Shown: positions 46,932 through 51,612 of the stretch, one piece after another
Layout of the letters: each line of letters begins with the position of its first letter
Position numbering within the stretch: the stretch's first letter is position 1
From: Streptomyces sp. NBC_01298
Lineage (GTDB): Bacteria; Actinomycetota; Actinomycetes; Streptomycetales; Streptomycetaceae
DNA: 64,000 bases
Assembly: GCF_035978755.1 (NCBI RefSeq)
Contig: NZ_CP108414.1
Location: forward strand, 3,968,001 to 4,032,000
Direction: 5' to 3'
The notes under the pieces: model-generated
The model's database searches: none
The model's input: only the letters and a program-made list of their open reading frames with translations
What the model was told of the DNA's origin: nothing
Position numbers and translations under genes: made by a program

Positions 46932-47023
46932 GGGCCGAACCGTCACACGCTCTCGCAGGCCTCCGCCAGCCCATTTCGCCGGTCCCGTCGCGGCTCTGCG
47001 TACGTCCCCCTGCCCGGGGCACA

Positions 47024-47059
47024 CCGCAGCCCCCGCCCGGACGGGGGCGAGGGCTGCGG
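47024..47059 (-). terminator. terminator of the symporter transcript
   Basis: Arms beginning CCGCAGCCC and ending GGGCTGCGG pair along about 15 bases with one mismatch around a GGAC loop, 18 bases past the symporter stop. Confidence 0.65.
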
Positions 47060-47076
47060 CAGTCGAGCGGCGGGGC

Positions 47077-48483
47077 TCAGGCGGTGACGAGAGCCTTCGC
47101 CGGGTCGGCGTCCGAGGAGTCCGAAGCGTCCGAGGAGTCCGAGGCGTCGGACTGGGCCGGGATCTCGGCCTGGGCCGGCTCGTCCAGGAGGGACGAGGAG
47201 GCGGTGGCGTAGGCCGCCTTGTCGAGGATTCCCTCGCGGGCCGCGACGATGACCGGGACCAGCGCCTGGCCGGCCACGTTGGTGGCGGTGCGCATCATGT
47301 CCAGGATCGGGTCGATCGCCATCAGCAGGCCCACGCCCTCCAGCGGAAGGCCCAGCGTGGAGAGGGTCAGGGTCAGCATGACCGTGGCGCCCGTCAGGCC
47401 GGCCGTGGCGGCGGAGCCGACGACCGAGACGAAGGCGATCAGCAGGTAGTCGGTGATGCCGAGCTGCACGTCGAAGATCTGCGCGATGAAGATCGCGGCG
47501 AGCGCCGGGTAGATCGCGGCGCAGCCGTCCATCTTGGTGGTCGCGCCGAACGGGACGGCGAAGGAGGCGTACTCCTTCGGGACGCCGAGGCGCTCGGTGA
47601 CCTTCTGGGTGACCGGCATGGTGCCGACCGAGGAGCGGGAGACGAACGCCAGCTGGATGGCCGGCCAGGCGCCCTTGAAGAACTGGAGCGGGTTGACCTT
47701 GGCGACGGTCCACAGGAGCAGCGGGTAGACGCCGAACATCACGAGCGCGGAGCCGACGTACACGTCCACCGTGAAGGTGGCGTACTTGCCGAGCAGGTCC
47801 CAGCCGTAGGTGGCGATCGCGGTGCCGATCAGACCGACGGTGCCGATCGGGGCGAGGCGGATGACCCACCACAGGGCCTTCTGGAGCAGTTCCAGCACCG
47901 ACTCGGCGAGGTTCAGCACCGGCTGGGCCTTGGTGCCGAGCTGGAGGGCGGCGATGCCGGCGACGGCGGCGAGGAAGACGATCTGCAGCACGTTCAGTTC
48001 GGTGAACGGCGTGATGATGTCGGTCGGCACGATGCCGGTCAGGAAGTCCAGCCAGGACCCCTCGCGCTTCGGCAGCTTGCCGTCCTGCGGGGTGAGGCCG
48101 GTGCCGGAGCCCGGGTTGGTGAGCAGGCCGATGGCGAGGCCGATGGCCACCGCGATCAGCGATGTGATCATGAACCAGAGCAGCGTGCGGGAGGCGAGCC
48201 GCGCGGCGTTGTTCACCTTCCGGAGGTTGGTGATCGACACCAGGATGGCGAAGAAGACGAGCGGGGCGACGGCCAGCTTCAGGAGCTGGACGAATATGTC
48301 GCCCACCTGCTCCAGGGTCGTACCGAGCCAGCTGATCTCCTGGCTGCGGGAGACCCAGCCGAGCAGAACGCCGAGCACGAGGCCGGTGACGATCTGGGCC
48401 CAGAAGGGGAACGAGAAGGAGGACTTCTTCGCCGGGGCGGTGGCCTCGGCGGCAGGGGTCTGCGGTGACGCGGACACGGACAC
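47077..48483 (-). CDS. dicarboxylate/amino acid:cation symporter (DAACS family), possible cystine or sulfur-compound transporter
   Basis: The 468-residue transporter begins VSVSASPQTP with GGAG upstream. It has about eight helices and the DAACS signatures: hairpin region VSRSSVGTMPVTQ, FGATTKMDGCAAIY, the second hairpin SAATAGLTGATVML, and MAIDPILDMMRTATNVAGQ. The family imports Glu, Asp, C4-dicarboxylates or cystine with Na+ or H+. The cysteine-rich leader peptide upstream hints at cystine or another sulfur substrate. The C-terminus carries Ser/Asp repeats. Confidence 0.9.
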   Translation of the reverse strand: MSVSASPQTPAAEATAPAKKSSFSFPFWAQIVTGLVLGVLLGWVSRSQEISWLGTTLEQVGDIFVQLLKLAVAPLVFFAILVSITNLRKVNNAARLASRTLLWFMITSLIAVAIGLAIGLLTNPGSGTGLTPQDGKLPKREGSWLDFLTGIVPTDIITPFTELNVLQIVFLAAVAGIAALQLGTKAQPVLNLAESVLELLQKALWWVIRLAPIGTVGLIGTAIATYGWDLLGKYATFTVDVYVGSALVMFGVYPLLLWTVAKVNPLQFFKGAWPAIQLAFVSRSSVGTMPVTQKVTERLGVPKEYASFAVPFGATTKMDGCAAIYPALAAIFIAQIFDVQLGITDYLLIAFVSVVGSAATAGLTGATVMLTLTLSTLGLPLEGVGLLMAIDPILDMMRTATNVAGQALVPVIVAAREGILDKAAYATASSSLLDEPAQAEIPAQSDASDSSDASDSSDADPAKALVTA

Positions 48484-48603
48484 TCTCCGGGTGGATCTGC
48501 GGTTTCTGCGGGAGGGGGGGGTGGTGATGCGGTGCGGCAGCACCCGGAAAAGCGAAGAGCCGGGCGGGCGGACCGCTGCTGCGTCAGGGCCGGTCGCGAG
48601 GAC

Positions 48604-48711
48604 TCAGCGACAACAGCAACAGGCCGCGGACACGCGGCGGCAGAGGTCGACGTGCAGGCGCGCCACGAGCGGGACGCTCGGGGTCATCTGGTGCGCGGCT
48701 GTCGTCAACAT
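48604..48711 (-). CDS. cysteine-rich leader peptide (attenuator uORF)
   Basis: The 35-codon ORF (ATG 48711; internal ATG 48687) ends LVARLHVDLCRRVSAACCCC-R-stop, with four consecutive Cys codons just before the last residue. L-V-x-R-x-H-V-D-L-C-R is the hallmark of the actinobacterial putative leader peptides found ahead of sulfur and cysteine genes. Ribosome stalling on the Cys codons when charged tRNA-Cys is scarce would change downstream expression. Its stop is 120 bases before the symporter start. A TTGAGG/TAGCGT promoter ends seven bases before the ATG, so the message is probably leaderless. Confidence 0.75.
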   Translation of the reverse strand: MLTTAAHQMTPSVPLVARLHVDLCRRVSAACCCCR

Positions 48712-48716
48712 GTTGA

Positions 48717-48746
48717 ACACGCTAACACTTCACCTTTGAGAACCTC
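48717..48746 (-). promoter_or_regulatory. promoter of the Cys leader-symporter transcript
   Basis: On the minus strand, a TTGAGG -35 box, an 18-base spacer and a TAGCGT -10 box precede the leader ATG by seven bases. Confidence 0.55.
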
Positions 48747-48768
48747 AAAGCCTGCCTTTGAGAAAGGC
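48735..48768. promoter_or_regulatory. two palindromes at the -35 region of the leader promoter
   Basis: TTTGAGAACCTCAAA (48735-48749) overlaps the -35 box, and GCCTTTGAGAAAGGC (48754-48768) lies just upstream. Both are perfect 6-3-6 inverted repeats with a shared TTTGAG core. They are candidate sites for a sulfur regulator. Confidence 0.5.
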
Positions 48769-48942
48769 GGAGTCAGCACGGGCCGGCGCGAGTCGGCGCG
48801 GGCCCGGACACCTCGGCGAACCCCGGCGAATCCCCCGCGAATCCCCGCCGAACCCCCCGGAAAACGCCGAAAGCCCCGGCGTCACGGGCGGCGAGCCCGG
48901 TGCCGAGGCATTTCGGTGTGTGATGAAGCTAACTGCTCCGTA

Positions 48943-49254
48943 CTAGCTGGTGCGCACGGCCTCGTCGACCGCGGCGTCCTCCTGGCTGCGGTTCGCGGCG
49001 AGCTTGTCCTTCGCGCCCGCGACGCGCCCGGAAATGGCCACGGACATCTCGTCGCGCTGCTTGCGCAGCAGCACGAAGGAGAGCGGCGCGGAGAGCACGA
49101 GGGCGAGCAGCACGACCCAGGCGGGGTTGGCGTCACCGAGACCGGAGGGCACCCAGCCCAGCCGGACCAGACCCGCGACGAGGACGAGGCATCCGACGAA
49201 GATCCCCAGGCGCATCGCGGTGTAACGGATCGTCGCGCTCGGCTTGAGGGACAC
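48943..49254 (-). CDS. DUF4229 family membrane protein
   Basis: The 103-residue protein has two membrane helices (about 12-33 and 43-62) and a charged C-terminal tail (RKQRDEMSVAISGRVAGAKD). The start is GTG 49254 with AAGGGG five bases upstream. Small DUF4229 proteins are conserved near futalosine genes in Streptomyces; their function is unknown. Confidence 0.82.
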   Translation of the reverse strand: MSLKPSATIRYTAMRLGIFVGCLVLVAGLVRLGWVPSGLGDANPAWVVLLALVLSAPLSFVLLRKQRDEMSVAISGRVAGAKDKLAANRSQEDAAVDEAVRTS

Positions 49255-49410
49255 GGTGACCCCTTCTCTCTTCGTCGGTCGTCCTACGGCGGCACGTGCC
49301 CGTCCAGTGAAGCACGCCCGGGCCACGGACAAGGGCGCCGGGGGGCTTCGGCGGGCAGCGGCCGCAGAGCGGCCGGGCGTCACGCGAAGCCGGTCCCCGG
49401 GCCCGTGCCG

Positions 49411-51612
49411 TCAGGAGATGCGGATGTTCGACCAGTTCGTGGCCTTGCCGACCTGCGTCCGGTTGCCGAAGCCGCCCTTGCCGTTGCCCCGGTTCAGCCA
49501 GGCGCGGCCTTCCTTGTCGAGCGAGATCAGGTCGGCCCGGCCGTCCCCGGACAGGTCGAGCCCGCCGACCACGTCCTTGTAGGTGGTGCCCCAGTCCTTG
49601 AAGACCAGGGACCGGGCCTTGAAGGTGCCGGTGCCGGTCCCGCCGAACCGCCACAGCTCGTTCGACGCGTCGAGGGCCAGCAGGTCGTTCTCGCCGTCGC
49701 CGTCGATGTCCCCGGCGGCGATCAGCTTCTCGTACGCACCGAAGCCGGACCCGCCGAGCGTGCGGGCCTTGAAGCCGACCGCACCGGTGTTCGCGTACAC
49801 GTAGAGCTTCCCGGTCGAGGTTGACCGGGCCACCAGGTCGGCCCGGCCGTCGCCGGTCACGTCGCCGGGCGAGAGGACCTGGTCGTACGCGCTCCAGTCC
49901 GAGGAGACCCTGACGTAGGCCGACTGCAGGTCGGGCAGCCCGCCGCAGGCCGTCAGGTAGACGCGGGCCTCGCCCTTCGGGAAGCGGGCGAACACGTCGT
50001 TGCAGCCATCGCCGTCGAGGTCGCCGAAGGGCAGCACCTGCGTGTCCACCGACGGCCAGGTGATCGCGCGCTTCCCTGCGGTCAGCTTCGTCGCGTCGCC
50101 CGCGTACACCTTGAGCCCGGTGCCGTCCCGGCCGAACAGGTCGGCCTTGCCGTCGTCCGTGTGGTCACGCCACTTGGGCAGCGCGCGGCTGGTGGTGGTG
50201 GCCTGGTAGACGCCGGTCAGGACGACGCTGTTCGTCTCGGACCACTTGTACTCGTCCCACAGGACGACGGGCCGGCCGAGCGCGTCGGCGGTGATCCGGG
50301 GCGCCCCGGCCCAGCTGGTGCCCGTCGAACTCAGCCGCCGCGGGGCGGACCAGGTACCGCCCTTGAAGACGGAGGCCATCACGTACTGCGCTTGCGCATA
50401 CCCCTCCCGCCAGGTCAGCGTGACGGTGCCGCCCGACGTGGCGGCCGCGGAGACCGCGCTGACCGCCTTGTGCGTGGAGAAGGGCTGCGTGTACGGCAGC
50501 CAGTCCCCGGTGGACGCCGAGCGCACCGCGTACGAGAGCTTCCCCTGGGTGAAGGGGTCGATGGCGACGAAGAGGTCGCCGCCCGGCAGGTAGACGGGGT
50601 CCCCCGCCATCTCGTACGTGTTGCCGCTGGGGAGCGCGGCATGCGGGGTGCTCCACTCCCCGACGGCCGGGGACCAGCGCGTGTTCATGAGGGGCCCGAC
50701 GCCGCCGTAGAACACGTCGAAGCCGCCCTGCGGATGGGCGACCACCTTCGGCAGCGCGTTGACCACGCCCGGGACCGGGAAGTTCTGGACCGCGGTCCAC
50801 CCGGCCGCGCCCGGGGCCTTCTGCAGGGCGACGACGGCCTTGCTCGCCTTCCACTGCCACACCAGCAGGGCGGTGCCGTTGCCGGCGACCGCCAGGTCCA
50901 TGGAGACGATGTCCCGGCTGCCGGACGGCGGCTGCTCGTTGAGGGCGGCCGGAGCCGTCCAGGCGGCCTTCGGGCCGGCCTTCTCGGCGGCCTTCACGAC
51001 GCCGGAGACCGACCACACCGCGACCAGCCGGCCGTCGGGGGCCGCCGCCAGGTGCTGGTAGCCCTTCTCGGGGACCGCGGCGACGTACTCGGGCTCGGAG
51101 AAGGCGGTCGCGCCGGGCGCGAGGGTGGCCACCTTCAGCCAGTAGTTGTTCTGGTCGTCGGCCCGCTTGGCCCGCCAGACCAGGCACACCGAGCCGTCGC
51201 CGAGCGCGACCAGCTCGGTGTTGTACCCGCCGGCGTCCGGCCAGGACTTCGGGGCGAGCCAGGTGGTGCTGCCGGCGGGCCGGATCCGGGTGGAACGGCT
51301 GAGCCCGTCGCCGGTGAGGGAGACGAGGGTGCCGTTCCCCGCCGACACCAGGGCGTTCAACCCGCCCGAGGAGGAGGCGGGGTCGGGGTTCGGAGCGTGC
51401 AGGACGCTGGTGCCCCACGGGCCCGGCGCACGCGTCGCGGCGGCCGCCGGAGCCGCGTCGGTCGCCGGAGCGGTGCCGGTCGCCGTAGCGGTGGCGTTGC
51501 CGGTGCCGGTCGCCGTAGCGGTGCCGGCGGCGGCAGAAGCCGCGGCCGCCAGGACGAGGACGGGAGTGAGCGCGATGCCCAGCAACGCGCGGGAATACGA
51601 GGTCGAAGTCAT
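49411..51612 (-). CDS. large secreted FG-GAP/VCBS repeat protein
   Basis: The 733-residue exported protein has a signal peptide (YSRALLGIALTPVLVLAAAA) and an Ala/Thr/Gly low-complexity start (ATATGTGNATATATGTAPAT). A long beta-propeller-like region with W-S-A-P-type blades follows. The last third has five FG-GAP repeats with calcium-binding D-x-D/N-x-D-G-x-x-D cores (GDLDGDGCNDVFARF; GDVTGDGRADLVARS; GDIDGDGENDLLALD; LDLSGDGRADLISLD). The ATG at 51612 has GGGGGGG upstream. A role in adhesion or extracellular binding is likely; no enzyme motif is seen. Confidence 0.85.
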   Translation of the reverse strand: MTSTSYSRALLGIALTPVLVLAAAASAAAGTATATGTGNATATATGTAPATDAAPAAAATRAPGPWGTSVLHAPNPDPASSSGGLNALVSAGNGTLVSLTGDGLSRSTRIRPAGSTTWLAPKSWPDAGGYNTELVALGDGSVCLVWRAKRADDQNNYWLKVATLAPGATAFSEPEYVAAVPEKGYQHLAAAPDGRLVAVWSVSGVVKAAEKAGPKAAWTAPAALNEQPPSGSRDIVSMDLAVAGNGTALLVWQWKASKAVVALQKAPGAAGWTAVQNFPVPGVVNALPKVVAHPQGGFDVFYGGVGPLMNTRWSPAVGEWSTPHAALPSGNTYEMAGDPVYLPGGDLFVAIDPFTQGKLSYAVRSASTGDWLPYTQPFSTHKAVSAVSAAATSGGTVTLTWREGYAQAQYVMASVFKGGTWSAPRRLSSTGTSWAGAPRITADALGRPVVLWDEYKWSETNSVVLTGVYQATTTSRALPKWRDHTDDGKADLFGRDGTGLKVYAGDATKLTAGKRAITWPSVDTQVLPFGDLDGDGCNDVFARFPKGEARVYLTACGGLPDLQSAYVRVSSDWSAYDQVLSPGDVTGDGRADLVARSTSTGKLYVYANTGAVGFKARTLGGSGFGAYEKLIAAGDIDGDGENDLLALDASNELWRFGGTGTGTFKARSLVFKDWGTTYKDVVGGLDLSGDGRADLISLDKEGRAWLNRGNGKGGFGNRTQVGKATNWSNIRIS

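Follow-up and report, generated by a model that had tools for sequence, protein, structure and literature searches.

A candidate cysteine-responsive leader peptide with an invariant UGU codon precedes a DAACS symporter gene in Streptomyces

Introduction

Polycysteine leaderless sORFs of mycobacteria, found ahead of cysteine genes, were reportedly described by Canestrari in 2020 (Ms5788A and Ms4527A; NF042933 and NF042936). A different leader system, the tna operon with its leader peptide TnaC, is controlled by Rho-dependent attenuation. For mycobacterial leaders of the Ms5788A type, PMC9031893 reports regulation of the downstream genes by cysteine-dependent elongation, and PMC13236596 describes translational attenuation for M. 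smegmatis cysteine genes. Outside the actinobacteria, a cysS uORF of the Rhodobacterales (uORFC-8-2) also places Cys codons before a cysteine-related gene; according to PMC8632094, UGC is dominant there and an intrinsic terminator is present.

Here we analyse a leader ORF in a window of 64,000 nucleotides (the whole stretch of DNA under study) from Streptomyces. Like the mycobacterial polycysteine sORFs, it is short, has an RxHVDLxR-like core and carries Cys codons close to its stop. However, it lies ahead of a DAACS symporter gene rather than cysteine genes, its peptide scores below the family cut-offs, and what is conserved is one UGU codon rather than a run of Cys codons. It differs from the Rhodobacterales uORF in that the codon 11 positions past the motif histidine (+11) is UGU and no intrinsic terminator was found. 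As in the tna operon, a stall is proposed near the leader end, ahead of a C-rich interval in which we found no intrinsic terminator; a role for Rho is predicted here, and the amino acid sensed would be Cys. A literature search, which lacked the primary mycobacterial paper, found neither the UGU rule nor a Cys leader before a symporter. We give a probability of about 0.7 to the full explanation developed below, in which scarcity of charged tRNA-Cys would stall the ribosome at this UGU, raise expression of the symporter and so promote import of a sulfur compound.

Results

The leader ORF occupies 48604..48711 on the minus strand (ATG at 48711, stop at 48604-48606) and encodes 35 aa (minus strand 48711..48604: MLTTAAHQMTPSVPLVARLHVDLCRRVSAACCCCR), confirming an earlier sequence-only reading, which had named no strand and had also noted the L-V-x-R-x-H-V-D-L-C-R hallmark that we find in the peptide. 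The core RLHVDLCR (48637..48660, minus), a motif conserved in both genus and class, contains a fifth cysteine, C24, within DLCR. The peptide ends C-C-C-C-R, its four-Cys run being encoded by TGT TGC TGT TGT (48610..48621, minus); the codon at 48619..48621 is the UGU at +11 and is our proposed stall site. Downstream on the same strand lies the DAACS/SDF symporter gene (47077..48477; PF00375, 359.8 bits), which could start at GTG 48477 or GTG 48483. The gap from the leader is accordingly 126 or 120 nt, the latter being the distance originally given. GTG 48477 is the likelier start, since it is better spaced, seven bases past a Shine-Dalgarno-like GGAG (48485..48488, minus) that is invariant in alignment A3 (32 sequences). 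An Rfam search over 47000-49500 returned zero matches.

For comparison within the genus, we took the best 80 of 588 orthologous loci from a genome scan, all 80 of them from Streptomyces, which with the window make 81 sequences. A -10-like TAGCGT (48719..48724, minus) lies 7 nt before the leader ATG, with TGTTA kept in 80/81, and agrees with the TAnnnT -10 element of S. lividans as given in PMC8079986. It is separated by an 18-nt spacer from a -35-like TTGAGG (48743..48748, minus). With this geometry, the mRNA probably has no 5' untranslated region, or only a very short one. The near-leaderless promoter claimed in the sequence-only reading is therefore plausible as a prediction, although the elements have no strict sigma-70 match and a scan of 48380-48900 for the strict consensus gave 0 promoters.

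An operator-like palindrome, CTTTGAG-GTT-CTCAAAG (48734..48750), spans the -35 element and spacer, and its form CTTTG-N4..8-CAAAG recurs in 77/81 sequences. It is accompanied by an extra CTCAAAG half-site (48756..48762, minus), a CAAA[GC] half-site being found no more than 12 nt from the palindrome in 72/81. In Streptomyces, palindrome and half-site (48734-48762) thus overlap the leader promoter, and no copy was seen near the other leaders of our census. We rejected the palindrome as a genome-wide sulfur operator: the copy in the window is the one exact match in the genome, and the places matching with three mismatches do not lie beside any census leader (judged by eye). A second, protein-level control of the symporter through this element is possible.

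The peptide scores 15.1 bits against NF042934 (cut-off 27), a family described as 'putative leader peptide' with which it has the motif in common, and 12.3 bits against NF042936 (cut-off 45). Since its score falls below the cut-off, we do not file it under NF042934. Leaders of the same symporter in three other genomes (G118, G121 and G124) do exceed that cut-off, with 36.4, 34.8 and 31.3 bits, and three of six leaders scanned (L192, L193 and L195) are above the cut-offs of both NF042933 (Ms5788A) and NF042934. We call the window peptide a leader of the NF042933/34/36 kind on the strength of motif and orthology.

NF042934 hits numbered 23 in the genome of the window itself, from which ten weak ones in frames of at least 106 aa (L095-L097 and L099-L105) were dropped. 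Eight of the 12 other leader-like hits precede sulfur-linked families. These downstream genes encode a sulfatase, ThiS with cysteine synthase, a cysteine dioxygenase, a rhodanese and an OAH/OAS sulfhydrylase, together with an SsuC-like permease, a sulfite/nitrite reductase and an alkanesulfonate monooxygenase (the last three with NCBIfam scores below cut-off). The leader before ThiS-cysKM is the nearest in wording to that of the window (LLLVARLHVDLCRLASAIC). Four cases are less clear: an NtaA/DmoA-type monooxygenase, a family-5 binding protein, a 2OG-Fe oxygenase and the leader-like ORF L091, whose first downstream ORF had no Pfam hit. L091 and L088, both leader-like ORFs, lie on opposite strands with about 1.1 kb between them (contig C1, near 7.41 Mb). 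Across the class, the profile found hits in 99/148 genomes, as against 0/14 control genomes, and from the upper part of the hit list we took 89 leaders (64 genomes; 85 distinct 60-nt cores). A script picked a downstream ORF for 85 of the 89, and Pfam annotation of these gave rhodanese (21), NIR_SIR (13), DUF4395 (12), CDO (8), PALP (7), PAPS reductase (6) and luciferase-like (4), besides rarer families, a part of which have names unconnected with sulfur (for example POR, ROK and MarR). Leaders of the RxHVDLxR...C(UGU) design thus precede mostly sulfur genes, in agreement with the earlier statement about actinobacterial Cys leaders.

The pairing of leader and symporter, for which a search of other genomes had been suggested, proved to be widespread. 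Within the genus, an HVDL-type motif lies upstream of the symporter in all 80 of the best 80 of 588 loci. One of these leaders is altered past HVDLC (L029), and two contain a repeated PLV-type segment (L070 and L081). Leaving out L029, we tabulated codons in 79 loci. From codon -5 to +11 (numbered from the motif His), departures from the commonest codon comprised 175 synonymous and 119 amino-acid-changing cases; for 13 codons chosen because their residue is conserved, the figures were 146 and 4. This predominance of synonymous departures favours selection on the leader peptide.

For the class, 246 genomes were drawn and an orthologue of the symporter, at a threshold of E <= 1e-60, was found in 61 of them (own genome included; all at least 430 bits), among them 12 of the 22 same-genus genomes listed. 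We read the 60 non-own orthologues for the motif R[LRWI][HYT][VI]D[LY]xR in a leader ending no more than 400 nt upstream, and found it in 48. It was present in every orthologue from families f1 (11/11), f17 (16/16), f19 (14/14), f37 (2/2), f28 (3/3), f30 (1/1) and f4 (1/1). The 12 without it belonged to f26 (0/5), f36 (0/4, where one sequence ran to no more than 251 nt) and f44, f3 and f33, each represented by one genome (0/1 each). Since the motif occurred in 80/80 and 48/60 loci, as against 0/60 on the antisense strand and 0/3000 shuffled windows, its position before the symporter is not due to chance. From motif to stop, the class leaders have between 1 and 5 Cys codons, and all 14 leaders of f19 have one; the four-Cys run is therefore not the conserved feature. 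The four-Cys ending emphasised at the outset is present, then, but as a local variant whose length differs among species. What is conserved is the RxHVDLxR motif together with a single UGU Cys codon placed 11 codons past the His.

Downstream of the leader, a scan of 48380-48900 for an intrinsic terminator found 0 cases of a hairpin with a U run. The interval between leader stop and symporter start codon (48478..48603, minus) is C-rich and G-poor. Such intervals average 0.48 C and 0.24 G, and C exceeds G by more than 0.1 in 80/81 of them, compared with 7/47 regions upstream of window ORFs, a rough control in which starts were guessed. Behind the 89 other leaders this excess of C is less pronounced (64/89). 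A composition of this sort suits Rho, which has been raised for mycobacterial cys leaders in PMC1262725, a source that rates its own prediction weak. We put the odds that Rho, rather than control at the Shine-Dalgarno sequence, governs the symporter at about even.

The alternative, that leader or interval RNA masks the symporter Shine-Dalgarno sequence until a ribosome stalled on the Cys codons unmasks it, has a precedent in the M. smegmatis cysteine genes (PMC13236596, as above). Consistent with it, an RNAalifold consensus of 32 sequences (the window and 31 of the 80 loci) pairs a leader segment, GGxGCGCCUxC, with the GGAG/start region. However, covariation lends no support, because the pairing segments hardly vary: doubly changed pairs number 2/30 both in this fold and in that of a second set (18 of the 80), and covariation is weak. 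When stalls were simulated in 79 sequences, mean accessibility of the Shine-Dalgarno sequence rose from 0.19 and was highest, at 0.25, for codons +4 to +6, with gains in 37/79 at these codons, 45/79 at +8 and 31/79 at -8; for 80 sequences the means were 0.18 when free, 0.24 at C4 and 0.21 at C11. The rise is thus small and also present at codon -8, and in the window accessibility stays at 0.01 at every simulated stall site. On balance we regard such translational attenuation as unlikely, though it has the most in its favour of the rivals considered here. Direct pairing between the interval and the segment of Cys codons, which by eye seemed promising (CUGUUGCUG with CAGCAGCGG in the window; GCCGCUG with CAGCGGC in other loci), was rejected, as it did not go beyond that of shuffled intervals (median z -0.07 to -0.31 in three clades; window -1.26).

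The symporter itself is named in the sources only as 'dicarboxylate/amino acid:cation symporter' or similar. A counterpart in S. venezuelae (P0025) shows 89% identity to it. It aligns about equally with E. coli TcyP, GltP and DctA, at identity levels of 30, 29 and 29%, with BLASTP scores of 151, 160 and 164 bits. With the TcyP group it shares an extra residue and a GCAxxYPA insertion in TM7 (among the tree tips compared), the [DE]P in TM8 that is common to most TcyP tips, and the SRSS of HP1, which SstT has in part (RSS). Unlike the TcyP/YdjN cystine symporter, it has KMDG in place of QNG and an HP2 one residue shorter. A tree of 28 sequences places the orthologues in a clade of their own (100/100), apart from TcyP (100/100), GltP and DctA; a position inside the TcyP clade is thereby ruled out. 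A gene on a plasmid of Ensifer adhaerens (L184) falls within the actinobacterial symporter clade, and likely reflects transfer.

Since leaders of this kind mostly precede sulfur genes, we consider it probable that the symporter imports a sulfur compound. A carrier of aspartate, glutamate or C4-dicarboxylates, with the leader coupling carbon or nitrogen uptake to cysteine status, would account for the slight preference of BLASTP for DctA and GltP over TcyP, for the best NCBIfam scores (DctA and GltP, both below cut-off), for an aspartate transporter as the best solved chain and for the retention of the Asp and Arg of TM8. The mainly sulfur-related genes behind other such leaders speak against this, as do the TcyP-like insertion and HP1 motif, and the 500 nt before the DctA-like paralogue of this genome contain no leader with the motif; we therefore judge it improbable. 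The most likely substrate is cystine or a different compound that contains sulfur and is acidic or resembles an amino acid. The sulfur part of the original prediction thus remains the best inference, while cystine in particular is not established: because the clade is separate and the TcyP score no better, cysteate, cysteine sulfinate and related compounds are candidates on the same footing.

The clearest regularity concerns the codon at +11. It is TGT in all 79 Streptomyces symporter leaders (from the best 80 of 588 loci) and in all 48 class symporter leaders, a set collected without requiring Cys. The same holds for the 89 profile-found NF042934 leaders (89/89) and for the Ms4527A family of f4, where Cys occupies +11 in 29 of the 30 leaders read and is TGT each time; both of these sets came from searches with protein profiles, which are biased towards the spacing but to which the codon is invisible. 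In the window's genome, 12 of the 13 leader-like NF042934 hits have Cys+11, and all 12 use TGT. L091 has no Cys at +11 and has one at +7 (TGC), while in the Ms4527A-type leader L293 the last Cys, TGT, is at +9 in place of +11. The sampled genomes are related, and these counts accordingly carry no probability.

Background usage runs strongly the other way, with TGC:TGT ratios of 155:1 in 81 symporter genes, 107:9 in 31 window ORFs and 246:31 in the ORFs downstream of the 89 leaders. Other Cys codons of those leaders are likewise mostly TGC (TGC:TGT 42:3 at +4, 36:6 at +9, 4:0 at +10 and 26:8 at +12 to +15), except for only three Cys at -8, every one TGT. Usage is more mixed in the 79 Streptomyces leaders (TGC:TGT 27:37 at +6 and 66:13 at +4) and in the Ms4527A set (14:13 at +7, 7:11 at +9 and 12:9 at +10). 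UGU is thus tolerated, even favoured, elsewhere in some sets; +11 is the position at which no departure from it was seen. We lean towards this codon as the stall site.

Both tRNA-Cys genes found in the genome carry the anticodon GCA, so that, unless there is a further tRNA-Cys, UGU would have to be decoded by wobble; the survey covered 73 Rfam tRNA hits, two of them without an ARAGORN call and one with an odd anticodon. The second tRNA-Cys gene (L355, C1:5722500-5722670) lies apart from the Gly-Cys-Val cluster.

The UGU might instead be kept for a reason of RNA or DNA, such as a protein site or an RNA contact involving the next base, rather than for decoding. Indeed, the base 3' of UGU(+11) in the 89 leaders is C in 72, T in 15, A in 2 and G in none, and by eye is never G in the 48 class symporter leaders either, yet 38% of codons in symporter genes begin with G. 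Against this, none of the other core codon positions tested in the 89 leaders prefers a U ending, and the constraint bears on a single codon that keeps register with the peptide motif, which makes such an explanation doubtful.

The residues at R-2, D+2, L+3 and R+5 are each present in 89/89 of the profile-found leaders, at a fixed spacing to the UGU. With UGU in the A site, they would trail the P-site residue by 5 to 12 residues, similar to the distances in TnaC and SecM, two arrest peptides. This likeness, the invariant residues and the leaders with one Cys codon could also suit an arrest peptide that senses a ligand (cysteine, O-acetylserine or sulfide) while UGU occupies the P or the A site, instead of metering charged tRNA-Cys, but the extra Cys codons of many leaders and the published mycobacterial reading favour the tRNA meter, the 89 come from a profile that itself fixes the spacing and L293 has its last Cys at +9, making this the least credible of the rivals.

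Discussion

The conserved motif, its register with the UGU and the company kept by related leaders make it very probable that we are dealing with an actinobacterial-type leader peptide that responds to cysteine. In the mechanism that we propose, the ribosome would load onto the mRNA at its 5' end and synthesise RxHVDLxR, which would occupy the exit tunnel once the ribosome meets UGU. When Cys-tRNA is scarce, the ribosome would stall there, shielding the approach to the C-rich interval and probably excluding Rho in a TnaC-like manner, such that the symporter is transcribed. When cysteine is ample, four further codons would be read, the ribosome would leave at the stop and expression would drop.

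A bolder and more tentative version, to which we give slightly less than even odds, treats polycysteine leaders in general as single-codon arrest peptides. With RxHVDLxR sitting a constant distance back in the tunnel, the ribosome would be hypersensitive at one UGU, read by tRNA-Cys(GCA) through a G:U wobble, for which UGC would be unfit; the extra Cys codons would then be ornament. One sensor would in this way set sulfur uptake, through the symporter, as well as assimilation and breakdown.

Our reading would place an importer under the actinobacterial cysteine leader system, such that uptake and assimilation would both be tuned by ribosome stalling. For a symporter otherwise named only in vague terms, the leader predicts a sulfur substrate. 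Moreover, the invariance of UGU and of its spacing to a peptide motif amounts to a constraint on a synonymous site. If UGU-specific sensing is true, leader peptides can tell synonymous codons apart, rather than sensing the amino acid alone, despite there being one anticodon for both codons.
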